Assembly: GCF_032401055.1 (NCBI RefSeq)
Contig: NZ_CP135529.1
Coordinates: forward strand, 1,302,001 to 1,366,000
Direction of reading: 5' to 3'
Length of the DNA: 64,000 nt
Source: Tardiphaga sp. 709
GTDB taxonomy: Bacteria > Pseudomonadota > Alphaproteobacteria > Rhizobiales > Xanthobacteraceae
Part shown: piece after piece, positions 36,735-50,652 of the stretch
Layout: each line of letters begins with the position of its first letter
Numbering within the stretch: position 1 is the stretch's first letter
Program-made: the position numbers and the translations under genes
Notes under the pieces: model-generated
What the model was told of the DNA's origin: nothing
Databases searched by the model: none
Seen by the model: only the letters and a program-made list of their open reading frames with translations

Positions 36735-37281
36735 GGTATCAAATCCCCACGTTATCGCCGTATGCCTGCGCCGCGGCCATCACTTCAGCAAGACGCCAAG
36801 CCTGAGCATTCGCCTGCTCAGCGGCCTCGGCGTCGAAGGCGACGGCCATATGGGCGCATTGGTGCAGCATCGCTACGACCGCCGCCGCGATCCCGCCAAG
36901 CCGAACCTGCGCCAGGTGCATCTGATCCCCTCCGAGCTATTCGACGAATTGCGCGCCAAGGGGCTCACGATCCAGCCCGGCGATCTCGGCGAGAATGTCA
37001 CCACATCGGGGATCGAACTTGCAGCACTGCCGACCGGCACGCGGCTGCATCTCGGCGCGAGTGCCGTGATTGAACTGACCGGCCTGCGCGAGCCCTGCGT
37101 GCTGATGGACCGCTTTCAGCAGGGGTTGAAGGCAGCGACGCAAGATCGCGATGCGAATGGCCGCGCCGTGTACAAAGCCGGCGTGATGGCGATCGTGGTG
37201 TCGGATGGCGAGGTTGTGCCGGGCGATGCGATTGAGACTGTATTGCCGGAAGGTAAGCAACGGCCATTAGAGCCGGTGTAG
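36724..37281 (+). CDS. MOSC domain-containing protein
   Basis: The 185-residue product has the MOSC features SIRLLSGLGVEGDGHMG near residue 26, RQVHLIPSELFDEL near 60, QPGDLGENVTTSGIEL near 80 and the conserved cysteine in LREPCVLMDRF near 124. MOSC domains carry activated sulfur or handle molybdenum-cofactor-linked reactions, for instance N-hydroxylated compound reduction. The start codon is inside a repeat element and has no good ribosome binding site, so the start is uncertain. Confidence 0.85.
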   Translation: MTSLVSNPHVIAVCLRRGHHFSKTPSLSIRLLSGLGVEGDGHMGALVQHRYDRRRDPAKPNLRQVHLIPSELFDELRAKGLTIQPGDLGENVTTSGIELAALPTGTRLHLGASAVIELTGLREPCVLMDRFQQGLKAATQDRDANGRAVYKAGVMAIVVSDGEVVPGDAIETVLPEGKQRPLEPV

Positions 37282-37301
37282 CCAACCGCGAGCGCGGTAA
37301 G

Positions 37302-37488
37302 CTCCCTCTCTCCGCATCTTGCGCGGGGAGAGGGGTGGGGTGAGGCATTGGCCTGTTCTATGCGTATCGTTTTCGGATCGAAGATTCCGATCCGAGAGAG
37401 CGCAACAAGCGGTGAGCGCGTGCCATGCCCCTCACCCGGCCGCGAAGTCGCGGCGACCTCTCCCCGCGCAAGATGCGGGGAGAGGTAA
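37302..37488. repeat. Composite palindromic repeat, CTCTCCCCGC family
   Basis: The outer arms CTCTCTCCGCATCTTGCGCGGGGAGAGG and CCTCTCCCCGCGCAAGATGCGGGGAGAGG are inverted copies, each itself able to fold. An inner pair GGGGTGAGG and CCCCTCACCC is also inverted. About 100 unrelated bases lie in the middle. It fills the gap between the MOSC gene and murI. Confidence 0.75.
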
Positions 37489-37579
37489 GAAGCCGCCCTT
37501 CCCGAAAAAGCCAGAATGCCCCTGTCTTGATTGCCAGACCCGCAGCAACTCCGCAGTAACCATCCTCCCCTAGGCTCTC

Positions 37580-38374
37580 ATGATGCCGACGCGTCCCACC
37601 ATCCTTGTGTTCGACTCCGGTCTCGGCGGCCTCACCGTCCAGCGCGAGATCGCCAAGGCGCGGCCGGATGCCCGCTATGTCTATGTGGCGGATGACGCGT
37701 TCTTTCCCTACGGCCAGCACACCGAGGAGGCGCTGATCGGCCGCGTGGTGCCGTTGATGGGCGAGCTGATCGCTGCGCACCGGCCGGACCTCGTGGTGAT
37801 CGCCTGCAACACGGCCTCGACGCTGGTGCTCAGCCATCTGCGCGCCGCCTATGCCGTGCCCTTTGTCGGCACCGTGCCGGCGATCAAGCCGGCCTGTGCG
37901 CGCTCGGTCAGCAAGCGCGTCTCCGTGCTCGGCACGTCGGGCACCGTGAAGCGCGAATATACCCAGACGCTGATCCGCGAATTCGGCGGCGGCTGCATCG
38001 TCACGCTGGTCGGCTCCGCCGAACTTGCCGCACTGGCGGAAGGCGCACTCGGCGGCCAAGGCATCGACGACGCCGACCTGTTTCGCGAGATCGCGCCCTG
38101 CTTCGTGCAGGACGCCGCCGGTGCCCGCACCGACACCATCGTGCTCGCCTGTACGCATTATCCGCTGTTGCTTGACCACCTCAATCGCATCGCGCCTTGG
38201 CCGGTGGCATGGATCGATCCGGCTCCCGCCATCGCACGCCGCGTGGTCGGCCTGATCGGAGATCATCAGCCCGGCGTGCCGCCCGGCGATGCCGTGCTGC
38301 TCTACACCTCCGGCAAGCGCCATGCCTGGCCGGAAGCGCTGGCGCCGTTCTTCGGCGGACAGGTCGCGGCATAG
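37580..38374 (+). CDS. murI: Glutamate racemase
   Basis: The 264-residue protein has the racemase set: [16 protein letters not shown] near residue 9, [22 protein letters not shown] with the first catalytic cysteine near 76, and [14 protein letters not shown] with the second near 187. MurI makes D-glutamate for peptidoglycan. The second ATG three bases on is an equal start candidate. Confidence 0.95.
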
Positions 38375-38453
38375 CGAGCGCTCGACTTTCCCTTGCGCGC
38401 TGCTAGCTTTGCGGCGCGCCGTTCCGAAAAGAGAACGGCAAAGGGAGACCAGC

Positions 38454-38861
38454 ATGCTCGATACGAATTTTCTGAAGAATGGCCTTCTCAAGACACTGCT
38501 CGTTGGCGCGGCGATCACGGCCTGCGCCGGTGCTGCCAGTGCACAAGGCATCAAGCGCACGCCGCTGCAGGACGTCAAATATCCCGCCGGCCATCGCATC
38601 GTGACGGTCGTGGCTGAGCTCGGCCCGAACCAGCTCGCCGGCCGCCATACCCATCCGGGTGTCGATACCGGTTACGTCCTCGATGGCGACGCGACGCTGA
38701 TCGTCGAGGGCCAGCCGGACAAGGCCCTCAAGGCCGGCGATTCCTATGCCGTCCCGGCCGGGATTCCGCATGACGTGAAGACCGGCGACAAGGGCCTGAA
38801 GATCATGGCAGTCTATGTCGTGGAAGACGGCAAGCCGCTGGCAACGCCCGCGCCGAAATAA
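38454..38861 (+). CDS. Exported cupin domain protein
   Basis: The 135-residue product has a signal peptide (KTLLVGAAITACAGAASAQ) and one cupin barrel with the metal-binding motif AGRHTHPGVDTGYVLDG and the second motif AVPAGIPHDV. AAGGGAGACC gives a strong ribosome binding site for the ATG at 38454. Small periplasmic cupins of this type have no assigned substrate. It precedes the HpcH/HpaI aldolase gene closely, but a shared pathway is not shown. Confidence 0.88.
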   Translation: MLDTNFLKNGLLKTLLVGAAITACAGAASAQGIKRTPLQDVKYPAGHRIVTVVAELGPNQLAGRHTHPGVDTGYVLDGDATLIVEGQPDKALKAGDSYAVPAGIPHDVKTGDKGLKIMAVYVVEDGKPLATPAPK

Positions 38862-38878
38862 CAGGATTCCATTTGACG

Positions 38879-39649
38879 ATGACGACCCCCGCGCCATTTC
38901 ACGATCTCAAGCAGAAATGGCGCGAGGGCCGCCCCACTTTCGGGGCCATTGCCACCATCCCGAGTATCCAGACCGTGCGCATCATGGCGCAGACGCTGGA
39001 CTGGATCATCGTCGATCTCGAACACGGCCCGATCGATCTCAACACCGCCCACGGGATGATCATGGCCACCGCGGGCACGCCCTGCACGCCGCTGGTGCGG
39101 ATCGCCGCCAACGAGCCGTGGCTGGCGAAAGCACCGATGGATTTCGGCGCGATGGGCATCAACTTCCCGATGATCAACAGCGCCGACGATGCCTATAAGG
39201 CGGCCCGCAGCCTGCGCTATCCGACCCAGGGCGAGCGGCTGTGGGGACCATTCCACGCGCCATTCCGCTGGAACGTGGGCATGCCCGACTATATGGCGCG
39301 CGCGGACGACAGCATGATCTGCATGATCACCATCGAGCATGTCGATGCGGTGAACCGGATCGGCGAGATCATGGCCACACCGGGCATCGACATCGCGGTG
39401 ATCGGCGTCGGCGACCTCGCCACATCCATCGGCAAACGCGGCCAGCCGGGCGATCCCGAGGTGCAGGCGCTGGTGGCAAAGGCCGAAGCGGGAATCCTCA
39501 GGTCAGGCGTCCCGCTGGGCGGCGCGGCGCTGAACGCCGATATGGGCAACGCCATGATCGAGCGGGGCTATGTGGCCCTGGCGCTGGGATTCGATTGGTC
39601 ACTGTTCCAGCGCGGAATCGCCGCCGGCTTCGAGGGCATCAGGCGGTAA
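38879..39649 (+). CDS. HpcH/HpaI family aldolase
   Basis: The 256-residue TIM-barrel protein has WIIVDLEHGPIDLN near residue 41, PLVRIAANEPW near 70, GINFPMINSADDA near 93 and MITIEHVDAV near 143, the metal and pyruvate-binding pattern of class II HpcH/HpaI aldolases. These split 2-keto-4-hydroxy acids to pyruvate and an aldehyde. The start could instead be TTG at 38873, which has the better spacing to AGGA. Confidence 0.9.
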   Translation: MTTPAPFHDLKQKWREGRPTFGAIATIPSIQTVRIMAQTLDWIIVDLEHGPIDLNTAHGMIMATAGTPCTPLVRIAANEPWLAKAPMDFGAMGINFPMINSADDAYKAARSLRYPTQGERLWGPFHAPFRWNVGMPDYMARADDSMICMITIEHVDAVNRIGEIMATPGIDIAVIGVGDLATSIGKRGQPGDPEVQALVAKAEAGILRSGVPLGGAALNADMGNAMIERGYVALALGFDWSLFQRGIAAGFEGIRR

Positions 39650-39734
39650 AACTGCCCTTTCGAGGCCGATTTTGCGTCGAAATCGGCAGGATTGGCGCTA
39701 TAAGCCCGCCAAACGGCAAAAGCCTGTCTTTCAA

Positions 39735-39763
39735 TTGACATAACCGGGCCTTCGCCCTAGAAA
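39735..39763 (+). promoter_or_regulatory. Predicted sigma-70-type promoter of rpsD
   Basis: TTGACA at 39735-39740 and TAGAAA at 39758-39763 are separated by exactly 17 bases. This would start transcription near 39770, leaving a leader of about 190 bases before rpsD. Confidence 0.6.
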
Positions 39764-39774
39764 CCGCCTTGCTC

Positions 39775-39957
39775 GCGGGCCGTTTTCGGCCCGCGAAGCG
39801 TTTCGCACCCGTGGTTCTCCACCCAGCTTTGGGAATGAACCTGTCGGTGCCGAGATTTTCCAGACTCTGGACTGATCACGGCACACAGGAGGGCGCGTCT
39901 CCTCACATCCACCAAAAGAGCCATCGCTTCGCGATGGCTGACAAAACCGAGGACGCG
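39775..39957 (+). promoter_or_regulatory. Long structured rpsD leader
   Basis: The predicted leader holds a GC-rich hairpin near its 5' end (CGCGGGCC-GTTTTC-GGCCCGCG region, 39775-39798), a GGAG/CTCC pair near 39890 and a perfect CCATCG-CTTCG-CGATGG hairpin at 39921-39937, about 20 bases before the start codon. Ribosomal protein S4 controls its own synthesis through a leader structure in other bacteria, so autoregulation here is plausible but not shown. Confidence 0.45.
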
Positions 39958-40575
39958 ATGACAAAGCGTAGTGAAGCTAAATACAAAATCGACCGCCGTA
40001 TGGGCCAGAACATTTGGGGTCGTCCCAAGTCTCCGGTCAACAAGCGTGAATACGGCCCCGGCCAGCACGGCCAGCGCCGCAAGGGCAAGCTCTCCGACTT
40101 CGGCACGCAGCTGCGCGCCAAGCAGAAGCTGAAGGGCTATTACGCCAACATCTCCGAGCGCCAGTTCCACTCCATCTATGTGGAAGCCGGCCGTCTCAAG
40201 GGCGACACCGGTGAAAACCTGATCGGCCTGCTCGAGCGCCGCCTCGACACCGTCGTGTATCGCGCCAAGTTCGTCGCCACCATGTTTGCGGCCCGTCAGT
40301 TCATCAACCACGGCCACATCAAGGTGAACGGCAAGCGCGTCAACATCGCGAGCTACCTCGTGAAGGTCGGCGATGTCATCGAGATCAAGGAAGCCTCCAA
40401 GCAGCTCGCTTTCGTTCTGGAAGCCAGCCAGCTCGGCGAACGCGACACCCCGGATTACGTCGAAACCGACCACAGCAAGATGACCGCCAAGTTCATCCGC
40501 ATTCCGCAGCTGTCGGACGTTCCCTTCGCCGTGCAGATGGAACCGCATCTGATCGTCGAATTCTATTCGCGCTAA
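39958..40575 (+). CDS. rpsD: 30S ribosomal protein S4
   Basis: The 205-residue protein opens [21 protein letters not shown] and has the S4 RNA-binding domain [28 protein letters not shown] and [17 protein letters not shown], the usual length and order. It binds 16S rRNA early in 30S assembly. GAGGACGCG precedes the ATG at 39958; an in-frame ATG at 39934 is less likely because family members start at MTKR. The gene is monocistronic with its own promoter and terminator. Confidence 0.97.
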
Positions 40576-40598
40576 TTTCTGACAGCGCATACGAGATC

Positions 40599-40630
40599 AA
40601 GGCCCCGGATTTTCCGGGGCCTTTTTTGTT
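40599..40630 (+). terminator. Rho-independent terminator of rpsD
   Basis: AAGGCCCCGGA and TCCGGGGCCTT form an 11-bp stem around a tiny AT loop, followed by six thymines, starting 23 bases after the stop codon. Confidence 0.9.
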
Positions 40631-40663
40631 TGGCGCCAATGCATGACCTGGCGTTAAAAACGC

Positions 40664-40753
40664 CGTCATGGCCGGGCTTGTCCCGGCCATCCACGCCTTT
40701 AAGCTCCGCCAAAAAATACGACGTGGATGCCCGGGACAAGCCCGGGCATGACG
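40664..40753. repeat. Palindromic repeat, GTCATGGCCGGGC type
   Basis: The left arm CGTCATGGCCGGGCTTGTCC and right arm GGACAAGCCCGGGCATGACG are inverted copies; CATCCACG and CGTGGATG continue the pairing inward. This is a second repeat family, different from the GTCATTCCGGGGCG type. It ends 15 bases before the threonine aldolase start. Confidence 0.8.
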
Positions 40754-40768
40754 ACTGAGAGATTTCGC

Positions 40769-41836
40769 ATGCCCTTCACCCCTGCTCGCCCCGATCCATC
40801 ACAGCCGGCGGTTCGCATCAATCTGCTGTCGGACACACAGACGAAGCCCACGCCTGCGATGCGCGCGGCGATGGCTGCGGCAGATGTCGGCGATGAGCAG
40901 GTCGGCGACGACCCCACCGTCAACGCACTCTGCGACCGCGTCGCCGAACTGCTCGGCAAGGAAGCCGCAGTGTTCATGCCATCGGGTACCATGTGCAATG
41001 TCGCCGGCCTGCTGGCGCATTGCCGGCCCGGCGACGAGATCCTCGCGCATCGCACTGCGCATATCCTCTCGCGCGAGGGCGGCACCCATGCCGCTCTTGG
41101 CGGCTTCCAGATTACCGGGCTCGACGGCGCCGACGGCAAGTTCACGCCAGATGCGCTGCGCGCCGCATTGCATCCGCGCACGCGCTACGAGGCAGCGCAG
41201 ACCGTGGTCAGCGTCGAACAGACTGCCAATATCGGCGGCGGCACCATCTGGTCGAAATCCGATCTCGCAGCGATCGTCACCATCGCGCGTGACCGCGGCC
41301 TTGCTACGCATATGGATGGCGCGCGACTGATGAATGCCTGCGTCGCCACCGGTATCGGTGCGAGCAGGATGTCCGACGGCTGGGACTCGGTGTGGATCGA
41401 TTTCAGCAAGGGGCTCGGCGCGCCGATCGGAGCCGTGCTCGCCGGCGCGCGCGACTACATTGATGCAGTGTGGCGCTGGAAGCAGGGATTGGGCGGCTCG
41501 ATGCGCCAGGCCGGCATCGTTGCCGCCGCCTGCATCCACGCGCTGGACCATCACGTCGAGCGCCTCGCCGACGATCACGCCAATGCGCACGCGCTGGCGC
41601 GCGGACTGGCCCAGATCGACGGAATCGCCGTGCAGCAGCCGGAGACCAATCTCGTGTTCTTCGATCCCGCGGGCGCAGGCATCAGCGGTGCTGCTATGGT
41701 GAAGGCCTTGCGTGCGAAGGGCGTATTGCTCGCCACCATGGACGGCCGCATCCGCGCCTGCACGCATCTGGATGTCAGTGCGGACATGATCGAGGAGACG
41801 CTGGGATTGATCAGGGACGTGGTGCGCGGGATTTAA
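40769..41836 (+). CDS. ltaE: Low-specificity threonine aldolase
   Basis: The 355-residue PLP enzyme has INLLSDTQTKPTPAMRAAM at the start, FMPSGTMCNVAGLLAH, LATHMDGARLMNA with the PLP-contacting Asp, and WIDFSKGLGAPIGAVL with the PLP lysine near residue 210. It splits threonine or allo-threonine to glycine and acetaldehyde. The ATG at 40769 follows GAGAG; an earlier in-frame ATG lies in the repeat element. Substrate stereochemistry is not predictable. Confidence 0.9.
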   Translation: MPFTPARPDPSQPAVRINLLSDTQTKPTPAMRAAMAAADVGDEQVGDDPTVNALCDRVAELLGKEAAVFMPSGTMCNVAGLLAHCRPGDEILAHRTAHILSREGGTHAALGGFQITGLDGADGKFTPDALRAALHPRTRYEAAQTVVSVEQTANIGGGTIWSKSDLAAIVTIARDRGLATHMDGARLMNACVATGIGASRMSDGWDSVWIDFSKGLGAPIGAVLAGARDYIDAVWRWKQGLGGSMRQAGIVAAACIHALDHHVERLADDHANAHALARGLAQIDGIAVQQPETNLVFFDPAGAGISGAAMVKALRAKGVLLATMDGRIRACTHLDVSADMIEETLGLIRDVVRGI

Positions 41837-41981
41837 CCTCTCCCCGCTCGCGGGGAGAGGTCGGGTTGCGAGCGAAGCGAGCAATCCAGGTGAGGGGGAG
41901 CCAGCGAGTAAAACACTGGCTCCCCCTCACCCGTCGCGGACTACGTCCGCGCCACCCTCTCCCCGCAAGCGGGGCGAGGGA
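41836..41981. repeat. Composite palindromic repeat without internal gene
   Basis: The left arm (ACCTCTCCCCGCTCGCGGGGAGAGGTCGG, then TTGCGAGCGAAGCGAGCAA and GGTGAGGGGGAG) and the right arm (CTCCCCCTCACCC, then GCCACCCTCTCCCCGCAAGCGGGGCGAGGG) fold on themselves and on each other. The same two arms occur at 48094 and 48555, but there a DUF559 gene lies between them. It separates the threonine aldolase gene from the convergent serine hydrolase gene. Confidence 0.8.
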
Positions 41982-41994
41982 GCTACAGTGCTCG

Positions 41995-43275
41995 TTACTC
42001 CAGCGCCTCGGCGATGATCTTCCGCACGTCGATCTCCATCCGCACCCGCTGCGAGGGTGCCTGCGTCATCACCAGCACGAACATGTCGTTCTTCGGATCG
42101 ACCCAGAAGAACGTGCCGCCAACACCGTCCCAGCGATATTCGCCGATCGGGCCGGGCTCGCTGGCAAGCTCCTTGGTGCGCACCGCAAACCCGAGGCCGA
42201 AGCCGCTGCCGGCGCCCGGGAAATAATAATAATCACGTTTCACGCCGCTCTGCGGGCCGACGTGATCGCGCGTCATCTCTGCCACTGTTTCCGGTTTGAG
42301 ATAGCGCTTGCCGTCAAGCGTGCCGCCATTGAGCAGCATCTGCAGGAAGCGCGCATAATCCGAGATCGTGCCGACCAGACCGGAGCCCCCCGCCTCCCAT
42401 TGCATGACCTCCGCGGGATCGTGCATGCCGATCACCGGCCCGACCATGCGATCTCCCGGGAACGGCTCCGCCACACGCGAGCGCCGTTCGCCATCGGTGA
42501 TGTAGAACGAGGTGTCCCGCATCCCCAATGGACCGAACAGCCGTTCCTCCAGGAAATGATAGAGCGACTGGCCGGACACCACTTCGATGACGCGGCCGAG
42601 AATGTCGGTGGAATGGCCGTAGTCCCACAGCGTGCCGGGCTGCTCGGCGAGCGGAAGCTGCGCGATGCGGTCGGCCCAGGAGGCATTGTCCCAGTCGCGG
42701 CCGAAGATATCGAGCTGCGCATAACGTTTCCGCGCGGGATCGTCGCCATAGAAACCGTAAGTGATGCCCGATGTGTGCTTGAGCAGATCGGCGATGGTGA
42801 TCGGCCGTTGCAGCGGCACGAGGCCGAATGTGGCGTGTTCGTCGCCCCCGTTGGTGTCGACGCCCACCTTCGTCTTCGCGAAGGCCGGGATGTATTTCGC
42901 GACGGGATCGTCGAGGCGCAGCTCGCCGTCCTCGACCAGCATCATCGCGGCCACCGAGGTGATCGGTTTCGACATCGAATACAGCCGGAAGATCGCATCC
43001 CCCGTCATCGGATGCCCGCTGTCGAGATTGCCGAACGTATCGAAATAGACCGGCTTGCCGTGCTGTTGCACCAACACCACCGCGCCGGGAATCTTCCGCT
43101 CCGCGACCATGCCGAGAAAATAGCGATCGAGCGCCAGCAGTTTTTCGGCAGAGAATTCGCGCGCAATGGATTGCGGTTTTTCGGCCCGGGCTGGCGGCGA
43201 AGGCACGATAACGGTGCCGACGCAGCAGAGCGCCAGCAGCAGGAGTACGGCGCGCCTATTTCTCCAGCGCTTCAT
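41995..43275 (-). CDS. Serine hydrolase, class C beta-lactamase-like, copy 2
   Basis: The 426-residue protein has a signal peptide (RRAVLLLLALCCVGTVIV) and the class C fold motifs: FRLYSMSKPITSVAAMML with the SxxK nucleophile near residue 95, and WDYGHSTDILG near 215 as the YxN equivalent (Tyr-Gly-His here). KHTSGITYGFYGD is a family-specific block. Such proteins are usually esterases or peptidases, not true lactamases. It resembles the upstream neighbour throughout, and its start overlaps that gene's end by 20 bases. Confidence 0.9.
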   Translation of the reverse strand: MKRWRNRRAVLLLLALCCVGTVIVPSPPARAEKPQSIAREFSAEKLLALDRYFLGMVAERKIPGAVVLVQQHGKPVYFDTFGNLDSGHPMTGDAIFRLYSMSKPITSVAAMMLVEDGELRLDDPVAKYIPAFAKTKVGVDTNGGDEHATFGLVPLQRPITIADLLKHTSGITYGFYGDDPARKRYAQLDIFGRDWDNASWADRIAQLPLAEQPGTLWDYGHSTDILGRVIEVVSGQSLYHFLEERLFGPLGMRDTSFYITDGERRSRVAEPFPGDRMVGPVIGMHDPAEVMQWEAGGSGLVGTISDYARFLQMLLNGGTLDGKRYLKPETVAEMTRDHVGPQSGVKRDYYYFPGAGSGFGLGFAVRTKELASEPGPIGEYRWDGVGGTFFWVDPKNDMFVLVMTQAPSQRVRMEIDVRKIIAEALE

Positions 43276-44554
43276 AGACCAACAGCTTCAAAGACCTTTG
43301 AATGCGCTGTCGCTCCGACGGCGTCTGCTCGAGCAGGATGAAGAAGAAATCCTGTTTGGGATCGATGATGAAATAGCAACCGCTGGCGCCGTCCCATTTC
43401 AGCTCGCCGAGCGATCCCGGCGGCGGCGGCTTGGCATTGCCGGCATCTGTGCGCACGGCGAAGCCATAGCCGAAGCCGAAACCGTCACCGGGGAAATAAA
43501 GATAGTCACGGCCGACACCGGAATCCTTGCCGATGTGATCGGTGGTCATGTCCTTGAACGTCGCCGCGCTCATGAAGCGCTTGCCGTCATATTCGCCGCC
43601 GTTCAGCAGCATCTGTGCGAACTTCGTGTAGTCAGCCAGCGTCGAGACCATGCCGCCGCTGCCGGATTCCCATTTCTGATAGGTGTCTGGGCGACCCTGC
43701 CTGCCGGTGCGGAAATCGCGATCCCAGGCCATCGGCTTGGCGAGCATCACTTCCTTCGACTTCTCCTTCACAAAGAAGCCGGTGTCCTTCATACCGAGCG
43801 GTCCGAGGAACGCCTGCTCCTCGTAACCGAGCAGCGACTTGCCGGTGACGACTTCGACCACACGGCCGAGAATGTCGGTGGAGTGGCCGTAGTCCCACAT
43901 GGTGCCCGGCTGGTGCTCGAGCGGCAGTTGCGCGATGCGGTCGGCGAATTCCTTGTTGTCGAAATCGCCGCTGTAGATATCGGCATTGCCATAGGCGCGG
44001 CGGACCAGGCTCTCGCCATAGAAGCCGTAGGTGATGCCGGACGTGTGCAGCAGCAGATCGCGGATCGTCACCGGGCGGTTGGGCGCCACGATATCCAGCG
44101 CCTTCTCGCCATTCTCCAGCTTCTTCTCGACGCCGACCTTGGCCTTGGCGAAAGACGGAATGTATTGCGAGACGGGATCGTCGAGCTTCAGCTTGCCCTG
44201 ATCGATCAGCATCATCGCCGCAAAGGACGTGATCGGCTTCGACATGGAATGCAGCCGGAAGATCGTGTCATCCGTCATCGGCTGCTTGGTGTCGGGATCG
44301 CGGACGCCGAAGAATTCCTTGTAGACCGGCTTGCCATGCTGCTGGATCAGGACAATGGCGCCAGGGATCTTGCCGTCGGCGATCTGCTTGCGGAAGAACT
44401 CGCCGATCTTGGCCAACTTCTCCTGCGAGAATTTTGCGCCGGCAGGAATGTCGAAGGTGCCTTCGGCGGCAAAGCGATCCTGGGCGAGGACGGGCGATCC
44501 GGCGAGCAACAGCGCTCCGCAGAGCAGCGCGCGTAGTCTGTGCCGCAAATTCAT
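43256..44554 (-). CDS. Serine hydrolase, class C beta-lactamase-like, copy 1
   Basis: The 432-residue protein has a signal peptide (RALLCGALLLAGSPVLAQ) and the same motif order as its neighbour: FRLHSMSKPITSFAAMML, LLLHTSGITYGFYGE, WDYGHSTDILGRVVEVV. The histidine in place of the usual Asn in the YxN motif is shared by both. GGAGCGGCG precedes the ATG at 44554. Substrate is unknown; export suggests cell-wall or extracellular ester or peptide turnover. Confidence 0.9.
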   Translation of the reverse strand: MNLRHRLRALLCGALLLAGSPVLAQDRFAAEGTFDIPAGAKFSQEKLAKIGEFFRKQIADGKIPGAIVLIQQHGKPVYKEFFGVRDPDTKQPMTDDTIFRLHSMSKPITSFAAMMLIDQGKLKLDDPVSQYIPSFAKAKVGVEKKLENGEKALDIVAPNRPVTIRDLLLHTSGITYGFYGESLVRRAYGNADIYSGDFDNKEFADRIAQLPLEHQPGTMWDYGHSTDILGRVVEVVTGKSLLGYEEQAFLGPLGMKDTGFFVKEKSKEVMLAKPMAWDRDFRTGRQGRPDTYQKWESGSGGMVSTLADYTKFAQMLLNGGEYDGKRFMSAATFKDMTTDHIGKDSGVGRDYLYFPGDGFGFGYGFAVRTDAGNAKPPPPGSLGELKWDGASGCYFIIDPKQDFFFILLEQTPSERQRIQRSLKLLVYEALEK

Positions 44555-44600
44555 CGCCGCTCCTTTTGCCTGATCAGAGGAGTGTAACGGCGGGGCGCTC

Positions 44601-45101
44601 TCAGACAAGGGGAAGTGCGCGTGCGAGCGCGAGGCGATGTAGGTCCGCCGATGGCTCGGAAAAGCAGCAGAAGGTGACGGCCGTGACTACCGGCGCATCC
44701 TTCAACGCCGCAATGACCGAGCCGACCGCAATGGGAGCCGCACGCGCGGCCGGAAAGCCATAGACACCGGTGGAGATGGACGGGAACGCAATGGAGGCCA
44801 GACCATGTGCCTGACACAACATCAGCGCCCGCCGGTAGCAGGACGCCAGCGCCTCATCCTCGCCTCTCCGGCCGCCATGCCAGACGGGACCGACCGCATG
44901 GATCACATACGCTGCCGGTAGCTTGTAACCTTTGGTGATTTTGGCGTCGCCGGTCTCGCAACCCTTGAGGGTGCGGCATTCGGCGAGCAGCTCGGGACCG
45001 GCAGCCCGATGGATGGCGCCGTCCACGCCGCCGCCTCCGAGAAGCGACGCATTGGCCGCGTTGACGATGGCGTCAACGCGGAGGGTCGTGATGTCGGCCA
45101 C
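44601..45101 (-). CDS. Macro domain protein (O-acetyl-ADP-ribose deacetylase type)
   Basis: The 166-residue product has the macro-domain features [27 protein letters not shown] near the start, [13 protein letters not shown] and [12 protein letters not shown]. These bind ADP-ribose and deacetylate O-acetyl-ADP-ribose or remove ADP-ribose. The only standard start is GTG at 45101, but the reading frame is open further up and encodes [14 protein letters not shown], the usual first beta strand of the domain. The true start may be a CTG or ATA codon at 45113-45146, overlapping the grxD stop. Confidence 0.88.
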
Positions 45102-45142
45102 GACGACGTCCAGCGTCGCCGTGCCTATTTGTCGACTTGAAA

Positions 45143-45478
45143 TCAGGCCGACGCCGGGGCGGCGATCACGCCCTTCTCGGCCAGCAGGCTCTGCAATTCA
45201 CCAGCCTGGAACATCTCGCGGATGATGTCGCAGCCGCCGACGAATTCGCCCTTCACATAGAGCTGCGGAATGGTCGGCCAGTTCGAATAGGTCTTGATGC
45301 CGTCGCGCAGATCGGCGGATTCGAGAACGTTGAGGCCCTTGTAGCCGACACCCACGTGATCGAGGATCTGGACCACCTGGCCCGAGAAACCGCACTGCGG
45401 AAACTGCGGCGTGCCCTTCATGAACAGCACCACGTCGTTGGTCTTCACTTCGTTCTCGATGAATTGCTCAATGCTCAT
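45143..45478 (-). CDS. grxD: Monothiol glutaredoxin, Grx4 family
   Basis: The 111-residue protein has the CGFS active site in [19 protein letters not shown] near residue 29 and the glutathione-contacting [21 protein letters not shown] glutaredoxins carry [2Fe-2S] clusters, often together with BolA proteins. bolA lies 3.1 kb away in the same direction, separated by egtB, egtD and a DUF559 gene. The start at 45478 follows AGGGACG; an open frame continues 38 codons upstream but is not conserved. Confidence 0.94.
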
Positions 45479-45805
45479 GTCACGTCCCTGTTCAAGGTCC
45501 AGATTCAAGGTCTGGAGTTGGCGGCCCAGCCATCGGGCGCTCCGCCCGGTCAGACTTGTCATATATGTAGCCGAATCCGTTCTGCACCCCAAGTCTTAAG
45601 CACGTGATCAAGCGTCTGAAATCACAGGCCTTGAGGCCTCATTACCGGTCCTTCGCGGTCACTTTCCGCAGTTTTTGCCAAGTCCGGTCCGGCCAAAGAT
45701 CATATGACGACAGGCCTTTTATAACCAATCGGATGACCTATTTAGGACAGGCTGCTCGGGAACCCATCACCAAGAGCAACGTTCTCTCCAAAATCGGAGA
45801 CTTTC
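45479..45805. other. Divergent region between grxD and egtB
   Basis: These 327 bases hold the promoters of grxD and egtB. A short hairpin-prone stretch lies near 45490-45520 (AAGGTCCAGATTC-AAGGTCTGGA). No small gene with a ribosome binding site is visible. Confidence 0.45.
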
Positions 45806-47074
45806 GTGACGAATCCAGCTTTCGCCAAGAGTTCAGGCATGAGTTCAGGCACCGCGTCCCCCGCCTCCGAATCCGCTCCCGCAGGCTCTCTCGCCCAAAA
45901 ACTGGGTGACGCCTTCCTGACGGTCCGTAACGAAACCGAACGCCGCGCCGCCCCGCTCTCCCAGGAAGATCAGTTGGTGCAGTCCATGCCCGACGCGAGC
46001 CCGGCGAAGTGGCACCGCGCCCATGTGACCTGGTTCTGGGAGCAATTCCTGCTCGGCGATCACGCTCCCGGCTACAAGGTCTACCACCCCGATTACGCCT
46101 ATCTGTTCAATTCCTATTACGTCTCTGCCGGCCCGCGCCACGCGCGCGCGCAGCGCGGCCACCTCACCCGGCCCGGCGCCGACGAGGTCACGGCCTATCG
46201 CAAACACGTCGATGCGGCCGTCATCAAATTCTTCAACGACACGTCGGACGAGAAGCTGACCTCGTTGATCCCTCTCCTCGAAGTCGGCTTCAATCACGAA
46301 CAGCAGCATCAGGAGCTGATGCTCACCGACATCCTGCATGCGTTTGCCCAGAACCCGATCCCGCCGGCCTATGACTCTGATTGGCGCTTCCCGGCCTCAA
46401 CCACATCGGGCGATGCGTGGACAACGCTGACCGAAGGCATCCACACCATCGGCCATCAGAGCGACAGCTTCCACTTCGACAACGAGAAGCCCGCGCATCG
46501 TGCGCTTGTCGGCCCCGTGAAGCTCGCACGGAATCTCGTCACCAACCGTGAATGGCTCGCCTTCATGGAAGCCGGCGGCTACGAGGAAGCCACGCTGTGG
46601 CTGATGGATGGCTTTGCCGCCGCGGCCCGCGAGGAATGGCAGGCACCTGGTCACTGGCGCAAGGTCAATGGCGGATGGCAGATCATGACTCTCGCCGGCT
46701 TGAAGCCGATCGATCCCGACGCGCCGGTGTGCCACGTCAGCTATTATGAATGTGACGCCTTTGCGCGCTGGAGCGGCAAGCATCTGCCCACCGAAATGGA
46801 ATGGGAAGTCGCGGCCCGCGCCGGCCAGCTCAACGATGCCTTTGGCATCGTCTGGCAATGGACGCGGTCATCCTACGCCGCCTATCCGGGCTACCGCGCC
46901 ATCGAAGGCGCACTCGGCGAATACAACGGCAAATTCATGATCAATCAACTGGTGCTGCGCGGCTCATCGCTGGCAACCCCGGACGATCACAGCCGCGTCA
47001 CCTATCGCAATTTCTTCTATCCCCACCATCGCTGGCAATTCACGGGCCTGCGGCTGGCCGATTACGGCAACTGA
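45806..47074 (+). CDS. egtB: Ergothioneine biosynthesis protein EgtB
   Basis: The 422-residue protein joins a DinB-like domain and a formylglycine-generating-enzyme (FGE-sulfatase) domain. Iron-ligand histidines are in KWHRAHVTWFWEQFL near residue 70 and FNHEQQHQELMLTD near 161. The FGE part has EKPAHRALVGPVKLARNLVTNREW and ends RNFFYPHHRWQFTGLRLA. EgtB joins cysteine or gamma-glutamylcysteine to hercynine with oxygen. Start is GTG at 45806 after GGAGAC. egtD follows by 45 bases. Confidence 0.94.
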   Translation: MTNPAFAKSSGMSSGTASPASESAPAGSLAQKLGDAFLTVRNETERRAAPLSQEDQLVQSMPDASPAKWHRAHVTWFWEQFLLGDHAPGYKVYHPDYAYLFNSYYVSAGPRHARAQRGHLTRPGADEVTAYRKHVDAAVIKFFNDTSDEKLTSLIPLLEVGFNHEQQHQELMLTDILHAFAQNPIPPAYDSDWRFPASTTSGDAWTTLTEGIHTIGHQSDSFHFDNEKPAHRALVGPVKLARNLVTNREWLAFMEAGGYEEATLWLMDGFAAAAREEWQAPGHWRKVNGGWQIMTLAGLKPIDPDAPVCHVSYYECDAFARWSGKHLPTEMEWEVAARAGQLNDAFGIVWQWTRSSYAAYPGYRAIEGALGEYNGKFMINQLVLRGSSLATPDDHSRVTYRNFFYPHHRWQFTGLRLADYGN

Positions 47075-47119
47075 CTTCCAACATCATCGCGGCGCTTCGA
47101 AAGCGTTGAGGAGACTGAC

Positions 47120-48085
47120 ATGAACGTTCATGCCCCGTTGGCACTGTCGCTGCTGAATGCATCGGCCTCCGCATTTGCCGCGGATGTCGCCGAAGCGCTG
47201 TCGCAGCATCCGAAAAAGCTGTCGCCGAAATACTTCTATGACGAAGCCGGCTCGGAGCTGTTCGAACAGATCACCAGGCTACCGGAATATTACCCGACCC
47301 GTACCGAGCTCGGCATTCTCCGCTCGCGCGGCAAGGACATCAACGCGATCATTCCGAAGAATGCCGCTTTGATCGAATTCGGCGCCGGCGCCACCACCAA
47401 GGTGCGGCTGCTGCTGGATGAATGCGACGTCGGCGCCTATGCGCCGGTCGATATCTCAGGTGACTTCCTGCAAGCGCAGGCAGCCGAGCTGCGCAAGGAT
47501 TTCCCGGGCCTGAAGGTGCTGCCGGTGAATGCCGACTTCACCGCACCGTTCGATCTTCCCGCCGATATCCGGATGATGCCGAAGGTCGGCTTCTTCCCGG
47601 GCTCGACCCTCGGTAATTTCGAGCCGCATGAGGCCTGCGCCTTCCTGCGTTCCGCCCGCGCCATTCTCGGCAAGGACGCCTTGATGCTGATCGGTATCGA
47701 TCTGGAGAAGGACGAGAAGCTGCTGCACGCCGCCTATAACGACGCGGCCGGGGTCACCGGCAAGTTCAACATGAACGTGCTGGTGCGCATCAACCGCGAA
47801 CTCGGCGGCGATTTCGATCTCTCGGCCTTCACGCACCGTGCGATCTACAACAAGGAACGCCACCGCATCGAGATGCACCTGATCGCCAGGAAGCCGCAGA
47901 CCGTGCATGTGCTCGGTCGCAGCTTCGCGTTCCGTGCCGGCGAGAGTATCCACACCGAGAGCAGCTACAAATACAGCATCGAGCGTTTTGCGACGCTGGC
48001 TCGCGGTTCGGGCTGGGAGCCGAAGGCGTCATGGACCGACGCGGACGAGCACTTCTCGGTGCATGCGCTGATGGCGGTGGAGTAG
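47120..48085 (+). CDS. egtD: L-histidine N(alpha)-methyltransferase
   Basis: The 321-residue methyltransferase has KLSPKYFYDEAGSELFEQIT near residue 33, LIEFGAGATTKVRLLL near 84 (SAM site), VDISGDFL, FFPGSTLGNFEP near 157 and IGIDLEKDEKLLHAAYND. EgtD trimethylates histidine to hercynine, the step before EgtB. No egtA, egtC or egtE is in the window. GAGGAGACTGAC is a strong ribosome binding site. Confidence 0.95.
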   Translation: MNVHAPLALSLLNASASAFAADVAEALSQHPKKLSPKYFYDEAGSELFEQITRLPEYYPTRTELGILRSRGKDINAIIPKNAALIEFGAGATTKVRLLLDECDVGAYAPVDISGDFLQAQAAELRKDFPGLKVLPVNADFTAPFDLPADIRMMPKVGFFPGSTLGNFEPHEACAFLRSARAILGKDALMLIGIDLEKDEKLLHAAYNDAAGVTGKFNMNVLVRINRELGGDFDLSAFTHRAIYNKERHRIEMHLIARKPQTVHVLGRSFAFRAGESIHTESSYKYSIERFATLARGSGWEPKASWTDADEHFSVHALMAVE

Positions 48086-48093
48086 CTGCCTGA

Positions 48094-48153
48094 ACCTCTC
48101 CCCGTCCTTTACGGGGAGAGGTCGGATCGCCCTTGCGATCCGGGTGAGGGGCC
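48094..48153. repeat. Left repeat arm next to the DUF559 gene
   Basis: ACCTCTCCCCGTCCTTTACGGGGAGAGGTCGGATCGC-CCTTGCGATCCGGGTGAGGGG matches the left arm of the element at 41836: a CTCTCCCC/GGGGAGAG hairpin, a second small hairpin, and GGTGAGGGG. It begins 8 bases after the egtD stop. Confidence 0.75.
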
Positions 48154-48198
48154 GGGCACGCAATTCCAGCGAAGACATGCTCTCGGGTCGGGGCGGCT

Positions 48199-48540
48199 CT
48201 AATCTAATGTTCGGCCATCTGCACGTAACGCCTGGTCGAGCAGCATCAGCACGCCGTCGATATTGGACAAGACGTCGTTATTCCAGAAACGCACCGCGCC
48301 ATAGCCTTCCGCCCGCAGATACGCGTCGCGAATTTCATCTCGTTTGGATTCGAGGTGTTGCCCGCCGTCGACCTCGATCACGAAGCGTTGTTCCCGACAA
48401 ACGAAGTCGCAGATATAGGGGCCGATCGCTTCCTGCCGGACGAATTTAAAACCGCCGACTTGCCGGTTGCGTATGCGATGCCAGAGCTTGGTCTCGGCAT
48501 CGGTCTGGTTGGCGCGAAGTTTTCGCGAGATCTGACCCGT
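48199..48540 (-). pseudogene. DUF559 endonuclease-domain gene, no recognisable start
   Basis: On the minus strand the frame encodes RKLRANQTDAETKLWHRIRN, then VGGFKFVRQEAIGPYICDFVC and FVIEVDGGQHLESKRDEIRD, and ends at a TAG at 48199. This is the DUF559 domain, related to Vsr/restriction-type nucleases; the D and E-x-D motifs match the nuclease core. The frame stays open upstream to beyond 48600, through the repeat arm, but has no ATG, GTG, TTG or CTG codon, so the 5' end seems lost or replaced by the repeat. It may be non-functional or use an unusual start. Confidence 0.7.
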
Positions 48541-48554
48541 CTTCGCTGCGCGAA

Positions 48555-48587
48555 GCCACCCTCTCCCCGCAAAAGCGGGGCGAGGGA
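48555..48587. repeat. Right repeat arm next to the DUF559 gene
   Basis: GCCACCCTCTCCCCGC-AAAA-GCGGGGCGAGGGA matches the right arm of the element at 41836 (GCCACCCTCTCCCCGCAAGCGGGGCGAGGG) almost base for base. It is the mirror-side partner of the arm at 48094 and lies right at the 5' end of the DUF559 frame. Confidence 0.75.
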
Positions 48588-48589
48588 AA

Positions 48590-48826
48590 TTACGCCTCTG
48601 GCACGCCCGTCTGCAGCGCCAGCGCGTGCAGGACGCCGCCCATCTGGCCTTTCAGAGACTGGTAGACGATCTGGTGCTGGGCGACGCGGGATTTGCCGCG
48701 GAAGGATTCCGAAATCACGGTTGCCGCGTAATGGTCGCCGTCACCGGCCAGATCACGGATCGTCACCTGCGCGTCGGGAATCGCGGCCTTGATCATGGTC
48801 TCGATATCGCGGGCGTCCATCGGCAT
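48590..48826 (-). CDS. bolA: BolA family protein
   Basis: The 78-residue protein has the BolA pattern: IETMIKAAIPDAQVTIRDLAGDGDHYAATVISESFRGKSRVAQHQIVYQSL, with the conserved histidine in AQHQ. BolA proteins partner with CGFS glutaredoxins in iron-sulfur cluster handling; grxD is at 45143 on the same strand. GGAG lies 9 bases before the ATG at 48826. Confidence 0.93.
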   Translation of the reverse strand: MPMDARDIETMIKAAIPDAQVTIRDLAGDGDHYAATVISESFRGKSRVAQHQIVYQSLKGQMGGVLHALALQTGVPEA

Positions 48827-49007
48827 TAATCGGGTCTCCAGAAAGGTTCGAATCGCGGCCAGTCGGTGCCGCCTCGGATTGCGAGCCTATCGCGACTGCC
48901 GCATGACGTCACGGCTTTCTAACGATAATCCCTCGCATGCCCCTTTTAAAGGCCGGAGGGATCGCACATCTGAAGAAGTGAAATATGACCGTCACAAGGG
49001 TTTAACC

Positions 49008-49370
49008 ATGAAGCTTCCCGGCCCGGACCACCCGATCACCATTGCACCCACCGGCAAACACATCCGCGTTTCTGCCGGGGGCATCGTGATCGCCGACACG
49101 ACCAATGCTCTGACCCTCAAGGAGGCCAGCTACCCCGCAGTGGTGTATATCCCCCGCACGGACGCCAATATGGACGCGGTATCGCGCACCGACCGTGTGA
49201 CGCATTGCCCGTACAAGGGCGACGCGAATTATTACAGCATCAAGACATCAGACAAGGTGCTCGACAACGCGATCTGGACCTATGAGACGCCGTTTCCCGC
49301 CATGGCCGAGATCAAGGACTATCTGGCATTTTATCCAGACAAGGTGAAAATCGAGGAAGTGCCCGCGTGA
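49008..49370 (+). CDS. DUF427 domain-containing protein
   Basis: The 120-residue product has the DUF427 features GKHIRVSAGGIVIADTTNALTLKE, PAVVYIPRTDANMD and THCPYKGDANYYSI, then AIWTYETPFPAMAEIKDYLAFY. The family is of unknown function; some members are fused to or near SRPBCC proteins. AAGGG lies 8 bases before the ATG at 49008; an upstream open frame lacks conservation. Confidence 0.9.
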   Translation: MKLPGPDHPITIAPTGKHIRVSAGGIVIADTTNALTLKEASYPAVVYIPRTDANMDAVSRTDRVTHCPYKGDANYYSIKTSDKVLDNAIWTYETPFPAMAEIKDYLAFYPDKVKIEEVPA

Positions 49371-49479
49371 TCCTCGGCTGATTGCCGAAGCGGCTTTCGA
49401 CATTTATCATGACGGCGCGCATCGCTGATGCGCCCGGCGACGCCTGTTGCGCGCGGAAGCGAGGGGGCTCGCCGCTTAC

Positions 49480-50652
49480 ATGTCAGACCGTAACGCTGCG
49501 CTCGATCGCGCCCGCACCTTCGTCACGCTGCTCGTGCTGGCGAACCACGCCGCTGTAGCTTACACCGCCTTCGGCCGCTATTACCCGAACCACTATCTGT
49601 GGTCGACGGCGCCGATCGTCGACAGCCAACGCTGGATCGGCTTCAACATCCTGACGCTGTTCAACGACACCTTCTTCATGTGTCTGATGTTCATGCTGTC
49701 GGGCCTGTTCGTGTGGCCGAGCCTGAAGCGCAAGGGCATCGGCGACTTCCTGCGCGACCGCGCGCTCCGCCTCGGCCTGCCCTTCCTAGCGATGATCTTC
49801 GTGCTGATGCCGATCGCCTATTACGCGTCGTTCAGCCTGTCGACACACAAGACCGGCTTTATCGAATTCTACGTCAACAATTTCAAACAGGGCCAATGGT
49901 TCGCCGGCCCCGGCTGGTTCATCTGGTATTTGCTGTTTCTCGATCTCGTCGCGATCCCGGTCTTCCTGCTCGCACCGCGACTGGTGGACGGCATCAACCG
50001 ACTGTCGATCCGTGCCTTCGAACGACCGTGGTTGTTCGTCGCCGTGCTCGCCGTCATCGCCGTGATCTCCTATGTGCCATTTCTGTTTACGGTCGGCGCT
50101 GTCCGCTGGTTCAGCTGGGGCCCGCTGCAGGTGCAGTTCAGCCGCATGGCGATCTATGGCGTGTTCTTCTTCGCCGGCATGGGCATCGGCGCCGCCAATA
50201 TCGACCAGGGCCTGCTGGCCCGCACCGGTGCACTGGCGCGGCAATGGCTGTGGTGGACCATCGCCGCCGCCGCCTCCTTTGGCTCGCTCGCTTTTCTCGT
50301 CAATTTCCGCCGCATGAAGCTCGCCAATCTCACCGGCGCGCCGCCGTTCTGGTGGCAGTCGAGCTATGGCGTGATCTATGCGGTCGCCTGTACGCTGATC
50401 TGCCTCGCGGTGCTGGCGCTGTTCCTGCGTTTTGGCCAGCGCGAGAAGAGCATCTTCGATCCGCTGCGCGGCGATGCCTATGGCATCTTCGTGCTGCACT
50501 ACATCCCGATGCTGTGGCTGCAATATGCGCTGCTGAACGCACCGCTCGGCGCCGGATCGAAAGCATTGATCGCCTTCGCGGGCACGCTGGCGGCGAGCTG
50601 GGCAGCGACAAGGGCGCTGCGGGCGATCCCGGGCGTGAAACGGATTTTGTAA
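49480..50652 (+). CDS. Membrane acyltransferase (acyltransferase family 3)
   Basis: The 390-residue protein has about ten hydrophobic segments and acyltransferase-3 features: RNAALDRARTFVTLLVLANHAAVAY with the catalytic-region histidine near residue 29, MFMLSGLFVWPSLKRKG near 77 and the C-terminal FVLHYIPMLWLQYALL. It probably O-acylates a sugar or glycan at the inner membrane. The ATG at 49480 is chosen since it begins the conserved region; its ribosome binding site (GAGGGG) is rather distant. Confidence 0.87.
   Translation: MSDRNAALDRARTFVTLLVLANHAAVAYTAFGRYYPNHYLWSTAPIVDSQRWIGFNILTLFNDTFFMCLMFMLSGLFVWPSLKRKGIGDFLRDRALRLGLPFLAMIFVLMPIAYYASFSLSTHKTGFIEFYVNNFKQGQWFAGPGWFIWYLLFLDLVAIPVFLLAPRLVDGINRLSIRAFERPWLFVAVLAVIAVISYVPFLFTVGAVRWFSWGPLQVQFSRMAIYGVFFFAGMGIGAANIDQGLLARTGALARQWLWWTIAAAASFGSLAFLVNFRRMKLANLTGAPPFWWQSSYGVIYAVACTLICLAVLALFLRFGQREKSIFDPLRGDAYGIFVLHYIPMLWLQYALLNAPLGAGSKALIAFAGTLAASWAATRALRAIPGVKRIL

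Follow-up and report, generated by a model that had tools for sequence, protein, structure and literature searches.

Introduction

Can a small nuclease gene lying between palindromic repeats be the enzyme that spreads them? The question is raised by a locus in the window, the 64,000-nucleotide stretch of the Tardiphaga sp. 709 genome analysed here, in which a gene of the DUF559 family sits between two palindromic arms that also occur joined to each other without it. A preliminary description of this DNA had proposed that the arms with the gene are the autonomous form of a mobile element and the arms alone its non-autonomous form. The model for such a pair is REP/RAYT, in which palindromes flank the gene of an enzyme and are also dispersed elsewhere; RAYT is an HUH tyrosine transposase (Y1). 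Rhizobia carry a further intergenic element with large palindromes, RIME of Sinorhizobium, which by its description is akin to the DUF559 element; we know of no link between RIME and a nuclease.

A second point of comparison is the repeat motif type BoxC/PIT/TM, where TM (also TMECO) stands for intrastrand triplex motif; it is present in 23 copies in Escherichia coli MG1655 and forming five inverted pairs of a type A and a type B copy (Holder 2015, PMC4666352). The parts of that paper available to us report excess variability near these repeats, state that mobility-providing activities were never found near them and call their origin unclear. In the open-licence literature, we found no paper linking DUF559 to BoxC/PIT/TM-type repeats and no title or abstract with DUF559, which is named in running text only. 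In excerpts of such texts, a DUF559 gene is assigned to the EDxHD homing family (PMC9403480), and transposase/DUF559 segments are listed as hotspots of mutation and recombination (PMC12308824). Here, we compare the window locus with DUF559 loci across bacteria and ask what lies between such arms, and where.

Results

A DUF559 gene between arms that also occur without it

The features of the window are collected in Table 1. The DUF559 frame matches Pfam profile PF04480 over 48202-48546 of the minus strand (E=1.1e-35, 122.2 bits against a curated cut-off of 20.6), retains an intact EVDGGQH motif, and has neighbours that we take, from their translations, to be egtD and bolA. The left arm aligns to 41836-41897 with a score of 28.0, and the region of the right arm (48533-48590) scores 31.5 against the remaining half of the 41836-41981 element. 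In comparisons with up to 4000 pieces drawn at random from the window, excluding those that fell on the three known elements, the arms scored at most 16.5 (left) and 19.5 (right). The gene thus lies between two arms that match the halves of the shorter element in the order and orientation originally described. The right arm had been placed at 48555-48587; an arm is present there, but this extent is too short: the inner limit of the arm lies at about 48534, so that arm and gene frame overlap at the 5' end of the latter.

Table 1. Features of the window discussed in the text
Feature	Position	Strand	Description
Left arm	48094..48153	+	Outer hairpin CCTCTCCCCG-N-CGGGGAGAGG, inner hairpin, then GGGTGAGGGG
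DUF559 (Vsr-fold nuclease, predicted) reading frame	48199..48546	-	Stop codon 48199-48201; lacks start codon and first residues
Right arm	48534..48587	+	ACCCGTC, inner hairpin TTCGC..GCGAA, then hairpin CCCTCTCCCCG..GGGCGAGGG; overlaps 5' end of gene frame
Gene-less element	41836..41981		Both arms, linked by a short stem-loop (GAGCCAG...CTGGCTC); DNA predicted to fold into a cloverleaf
Second gene-less element (third arm element of the window)	37303..37486 (about)		Interior of ~100 bp ending GTGCCATGCCCCTCACCC

The arms are strongly structured. Three copies of the hairpin CCTCTCCCCG-N-GGGGAGAGG are present in the window, where 100 shuffles give an expectation of 0.00, and predicted single-stranded DNA folding beat all 200 shuffles for the left arm (z -6.96), the right arm (z -5.05) and the whole 41836 element (z -8.87). 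The predicted cloverleaf of the latter consists of an outer stem formed by both ends, two side hairpins and a central stem. Rfam returned nothing at gathering score for window positions 37000-50000, a general repeat search of the window did not place the arms among its 20 largest families, and no match was found for the pattern CCCTCNCCCG..GGGNGAGGG.

The window frame has no ATG, GTG or TTG start. Comparison by eye with the intact copy at the same site in a relative (genome G013), where an ATG stands directly inside the arm, indicates that about 40 bp including the start codon are missing. Because a usable start is absent here and present in this same-site copy, the window copy is, judged from its sequence, a decayed full form. 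Two details depart from the first suggestion that the 41836 element is the non-autonomous form of this gene: the window copy has lost its start, and by eye the short loop of the element is less like the ends of the window gene than like those of a different DUF559 lineage (GAGNCTCCGC...GCGGAGNCTC). The 37303 element is the closer match to the window gene. Next to the 41836 element, at 41995-44608 of the minus strand, the window also holds two tandem paralogous genes whose translations resemble serine hydrolases (direct repeats D3, D4 and D12).

The host genome as a whole contains three PF04480 matches. One (L003) is part of a longer frame, and the two stand-alone copies, that of the window (L001) and L002, are by eye both enclosed by palindromic arms that face each other, the arms of the two copies being of different sequence classes. 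The hairpin pattern CCTCTCCCCG has 45 forward matches in the same genome. That arms so far outnumber DUF559 genes, and that single arms without a partner occur, is what one would expect if DUF559 were a free-standing homing endonuclease invading palindromic repeats spread by something else, the arms being its landing site and not its own ends. The sections below bear on this alternative, which we regard as unlikely overall.

Arms flank DUF559 genes in several phyla

As a measure of facing arms, we scored the complementarity of the 250 bp upstream to the 250 bp downstream of the DUF559 domain. Dummy segments of 310 bp from the same loci served as control, and their 99.9th percentile (15.69) as cut. 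From 111 DUF559 loci, some repeated between collections (e.g., L028 is L047), 106 were testable. The cut was exceeded by 83 of these, as against 3 of 2624 dummies. The two stand-alone copies of the host genome fall below it, the window copy narrowly (15.5) and L002 with 14.0; the arms of both are recognised by eye and motif. Three fused DUF559 proteins (L003, L034 and L035, scoring 9.0, 8.5 and 12.0) are counted among the 106 and were dropped before loci sharing a homologous neighbour on either side were merged, which condensed 108 loci into 57 site clusters; 44 of the 55 testable clusters pass. Among the passing loci are records whose titles name Nitrospirae, Omnitrophica, Chloroflexi, Opitutus and Deltaproteobacteria; they share the layout but not the arm sequences. 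Such variation of the arms by lineage around a constant layout speaks against a homing endonuclease that merely lands in repeats.

A sample from the phylum, the best 30 by profile of 87 positive genomes, gave 14/30 loci above the cut with 300-bp flanks set at the profile ends and 18/30 with domain-anchored 250-bp flanks, 12/30 failing the latter test; without two loci that repeat earlier ones (L231 and L232), the counts are 13/28 and 17/28. At 300-bp flanks, loci of PIN-domain genes passed in 0/28 cases and dummies in 1/348. An upstream G-run combined with a downstream C-run was found at 21/30 and 88/107 DUF559 loci, 1/28 PIN loci and 6/2114 dummies. DUF559 genes are therefore enriched between arms, whereas genes of the PIN control family are not; this enrichment was one of the checks originally called for.

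These controls also bear on the simplest alternative, that the arms are ordinary transcription terminators flanking a small gene by chance. The arms are indeed GC-rich hairpins in intergenic DNA, but they face each other, are able to pair and exist in dozens of copies, no PIN gene passes the same test, and PIT elements lacked terminator activity in earlier work cited in the accessible part of Holder 2015 (PMC4666352). On the PIN and dummy controls we rejected the terminator idea, which the gene-blind search below also contradicts; its probability is very small.

Ten named records from the plasmid collection, compared by eye, illustrate the range of arrangements. Arms stand on both sides of DUF559 in Azospirillum lipoferum, Sphingomonas, Deinococcus, Sinorhizobium and a Synechocystis plasmid. 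In Neisseria, similar repeats flank the gene on both sides, yet in the same orientation, while E. coli and Klebsiella have arms on the 3' side only and Azospirillum brasilense on the 5' side only. In the Geobacillus record, no arms were seen beside DUF559. Covariation of arms and gene was looked at in Bradyrhizobium, where each DUF559 clade sits essentially at one orthologous site. As a separate observation, the DUF559 gene of a Sphingomonas plasmid (L171) is annotated between a GatB/YqeY gene and dnaG, and one site cluster (L092, L095, L100, L104, L117 and L126) has a downstream gene that looks similar to that of L171, a possible insertion hotspot.

DUF559 is the only cargo recognised between the arms

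To see what such arms enclose without reference to genes, we looked in 297 genomes of the order for arm cores that face each other at one of three spacings. DUF559 was present in 16 of 18 places at 335-365 bp, in 2 of 3 at 435-465 bp and in none at the single place with 235-265 bp, that is, in 18 of 22 arm pairs in all. The four remaining pairs are, by eye, neighbouring gene-less palindromes, and two of them (L345 and L353) overlap. Seven of the 22 open frames of at least 50 aa in these four places were scanned and gave no Pfam match at E<=0.01. The possibility that arms stand next to all gene types equally, raised at the outset as the finding that would speak against a link, is thus not what the gene-blind pairs suggest: they hold DUF559 or no recognisable other gene. 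L345 and L353, both from genome G520, are two tandem, near-identical gene-less palindromic elements in the same orientation.

Interior lengths fall into two classes. In 1.86 Mb of sequence, which includes 400 kb of one genome (G158, as L314-L333) as background only, 71 closed arm pairs were present, 37 of them with an interior of 10-150 bp and 34, all with DUF559, with one of 250-500 bp, and none of an intermediate length or of any greater length up to 3000 bp was found there. As DUF559 was the bait that selected these loci, its presence in all 34 long interiors carries no weight of its own, and only the absence of other cargo counts.

Many gene-less copies retain ends of the gene

Among the named loci L047-L126, 26 gene-less interiors were recovered, from which two artefacts were dropped by hand (L057:10221, inside the gene, and L054:958, the gene's own trailer). 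At p<0.05 against 60 block shuffles, 16 of the remaining 24 match the 3' end region of DUF559, 9 its 5' end and 8 both; these eight adjoin DUF559 at one orthologous Bradyrhizobium site and so are not independent. At other positions in these loci, shorter gene-less interiors match a second DUF559 clade, again at the gene ends. The resemblance is weaker in the host genome, where 8/26 interiors match at the 3' end and 5/26 at the 5' end (p<0.05), a set that does not contain the 41836 element because its core differs from the search pattern.

Full and short forms can share their arms directly: in one genome (G215), the same arms are separated by about 140 bp in one arrangement and, with DUF559 between them, by about 480 bp in the other. 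By eye, the arm class of the DUF559 copy is clearly that of the listed gene-less repeats in three of eight comparable genomes (G298, G213 and G215), and differs or is ambiguous in the remaining five. The short forms can be described as copies without most of the gene that keep both arms and often one or both gene ends. Such remnants, held by many gene-less copies, are expected of deletions and not of the pre-insertion sites that a homing endonuclease would leave behind.

At one locus, the unit is present or absent as a block

We compared sites named after their downstream genes, which are presumably psd and lpd. Upstream of the psd-like gene, 5 of 18 congeneric genomes carry the full unit of arms and gene, one (G013) a 5'-truncated remnant, and 12 no arm at all. 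Eleven of these twelve share a related spacer (nine by alignment, in which it is 50-51 bp long; G012 and G016 by eye), G011 being the one that does not. The flanks of the five occupied sites are no more similar to this spacer than shuffles are; arms and gene are thus present or absent together, replacing the 50-51 bp spacer. Since loss of an element would not rebuild the spacer, we read the occupied state as a gain. At this one locus, no target duplication was seen by eye, and the outer palindrome continues as TTCTTTCTT...AAGAAAGAA (also by eye). Upstream of the lpd-like gene, three of 17 genomes have the gene-bearing element, one a gene-less element and two no more than the left arm, while the other 11 have none of it. 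Of 16 genomes compared at the site of the window copy, two carry the gene-bearing and one the gene-less element.

Empty sites in close relatives, a search for which had been proposed, therefore exist at both psd (12/18 without any arm) and lpd (11/17 without). That the 12 psd genomes lacking the gene lack the arms as well is difficult to reconcile with a homing endonuclease invading arms already in place. Unrelated palindromic repeats were seen in the egtD-bolA spacer of congeners without the DUF559 element, one kind in L148-L150, L153 and L158 (CTCATCCTGAGGAGC..CACCATGAGG) and another in L156 (GGATTGCTTCGTCGC..AATGACG).

Repeat number tracks DUF559 across genomes

Across 299 genomes of the phylum, we counted the pattern CCCTCNCCC-N(1,30)-CCTCNCCC and subtracted a reversed-pattern control to obtain net repeats. 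A profile match at E<=1e-15, a cut that also admits the fused type (the host genome counts three), made 87 genomes DUF559-positive. At least 10 net repeats were present in 48/87 positive but only 9/212 negative genomes (Fisher p 1.6e-22), and in a permutation within families (14 informative) the observed value was reached in 0/5000 cases. Moving the three weakest positives (G108, G126 and G189) to the negatives by hand gives 46/84 versus 11/215. There are exceptions: 35/87 positive genomes, many in families f11 and f12, have fewer than 6 net repeats. Four genomes (G247, G175, G049 and G217) are repeat-rich with no DUF559 match at E<=1e-15; the gene may have been lost or have diverged there, or a different mobiliser may act. 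The scarcity of repeats where DUF559 is missing again argues against repeats that owe their spread to something other than this enzyme.

A predicted Vsr-like nuclease under purifying selection

Residues D51, E62, D64, Q67 and H68 are invariant in 36/36 aligned DUF559 relatives and are found in the window translation as well. An AlphaFold model of the L047 protein (pLDDT 88.2, pTM 0.80) has as its nearest folds 3hrl and then the homing endonuclease I-Bth0305I (3r3p_B, E 1.7e-4, TM (target) 0.77), with E. coli Vsr (1vsr) ranking tenth (E 0.044). In line with this, the DUF559 profile matches I-Bth0305I with an E of 0.0052. The catalytic domain is thus predicted to adopt a Vsr/I-Bth0305I-like fold. 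Further profile matches to cholera-toxin B chains (E 0.14-0.3 and similar) were taken as noise, and a reading as defence system was discarded, PADLOC having given weak DpdF matches only, for three relatives.

That I-Bth0305I is the closest fold after 3hrl favours the homing-endonuclease alternative. This predicted likeness of the catalytic domain goes along with a difference in setting: I-Bth0305I is an intron protein (3r3p, "mobile intron protein"), whereas the DUF559 gene sits in a palindromic element that has gene-less derivatives.

In five shared-site groups, median dN/dS lies at 0.07-0.24, synonymous sites being close to saturation. Purifying selection on a gene often found at the same orthologous site across species stands against a purely mobile element and would fit a host function too. 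DUF559 might then be a repair or stress nuclease kept for the cell's benefit, with the palindromes gained secondarily as regulatory or protective borders; the accessible text of PMC12907096 reports that a DNA-damage response needs the Caulobacter DUF559 protein VsrA when a cytosine methylase is missing. We consider this improbable as a full account, as it explains neither the missing other cargo genes nor the gene-less derivatives nor the co-occurrence of repeats and DUF559. It is compatible with the mobile-element reading as domestication, and persistence at orthologous sites, combined with purifying selection, points to a stationary or domesticated state for many present-day copies.

Discussion

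A probable pair of autonomous and non-autonomous forms of one element

We consider it probable that these loci represent a pair of autonomous and non-autonomous elements that uses a Vsr-fold nuclease, comparable to REP/RAYT and built around an unrelated enzyme, with mobilisation as the part that we infer. The reading draws on what the compared sequences show: an architecture that returns at unrelated sites and across several phyla, the two interior size classes and the deletion derivatives, together with whole-unit presence or absence at one locus, genome-level co-occurrence, invariant catalytic residues, purifying selection and the predicted Vsr/I-Bth0305I-like fold. To that extent, the division into autonomous and non-autonomous forms first proposed gains support from the enrichment, the gene-blind pairs, the empty sites and the tracking of DUF559 by repeat number, while the act of mobilisation stays conjectural.

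The full form, about 0.5 kb long, consists of two GC-rich, facing palindromic arms with one DUF559 gene filling the central loop, in place of the loop of the cloverleaf predicted for the gene-less form. The nuclease probably recognises its own folded arms as hairpin or triplex DNA and nicks or cuts there and at a target, and repair of the break would then copy arms and interior into the new place. By such cutting and copying, gene-less copies could spread in trans, as REPs are thought to do with RAYT. Break repair would fit better than classical transposition, because no target duplication is visible and a spacer of about 50 bp is replaced at one locus.

Relation to known systems

The likeness to REP/RAYT, for which we draw partly on the available portion of PMC3733652, extends to many short palindromic copies, to a nuclease gene that is present once or a few times between palindromes of this kind, and to purifying selection on the gene; palindromes flanking the enzyme gene and dispersed copies are both found for the DUF559 element. 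Stationary or domesticated DUF559 copies would resemble RAYTs in this respect too. The enzyme differs: by its profile and predicted Vsr-like fold, DUF559 is not an HUH tyrosine transposase and appears to have a fold of the Vsr/PD-(D/E)XK type with invariant D, E-x-D and QH. The element therefore seems to work like REP/RAYT but is not a member, because the enzymes are unrelated.

For the BoxC/PIT/TM repeats, the likeness lies in the arms. By eye, many DUF559 arms have an X'-loop-X-NNN-X design (e.g., CCCTCTCCC..GGGAGAGGGTTAGGGTGAGGG), and at many DUF559 loci a hairpin is followed by a third, complementary purine block that could form a putative triplex. Such motifs lie 3' of the E. coli DUF559 gene ycjD, one of them a standard type A copy, and the inverted pairs of type A and type B would fit the two ends of one element. 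Two differences remain: BoxC/PIT/TM repeats are known only as non-coding repeats, and the arms of the window genus and of Bradyrhizobium add an inner hairpin between the putative triplex strands. Of 5426 complete E. coli genomes, 3361 match a ycjD query over 80% or more of its length. No matching arm was seen 5' of ycjD, and no clean empty site was found in two ycjD-less strains examined, which have other genes after sapF. Downstream of ycjD in E. coli DH10B (L290, about 2100-2420), a second partial ycjD 3' end is followed by more triplex-type repeats and looks as if it were a deleted second DUF559 element.

Implications

Taken further, these loci may represent a new class of bacterial mobile element, for which we put the chances at slightly below even: a palindrome that folds and can form a triplex, with the gene of one Vsr-fold nuclease (neither HUH nor DDE) in its loop, present in several phyla, moving by cutting of folded DNA and break repair, and the source of the BoxC/PIT/triplex repeats and their relatives. 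Such an element would be a REP/RAYT-like arrangement built around an unrelated enzyme. It would offer a candidate enzyme and a history for a widespread repeat family whose spread is left unexplained in the parts of PMC4666352 available to us, and a testable function for a nuclease family still named a domain of unknown function. With ycjD as its E. coli member, the proposed link between DUF559 and these repeats is testable in laboratory strains, and it may have a bearing on the genome instability reported around BoxC/PIT/TM repeats.
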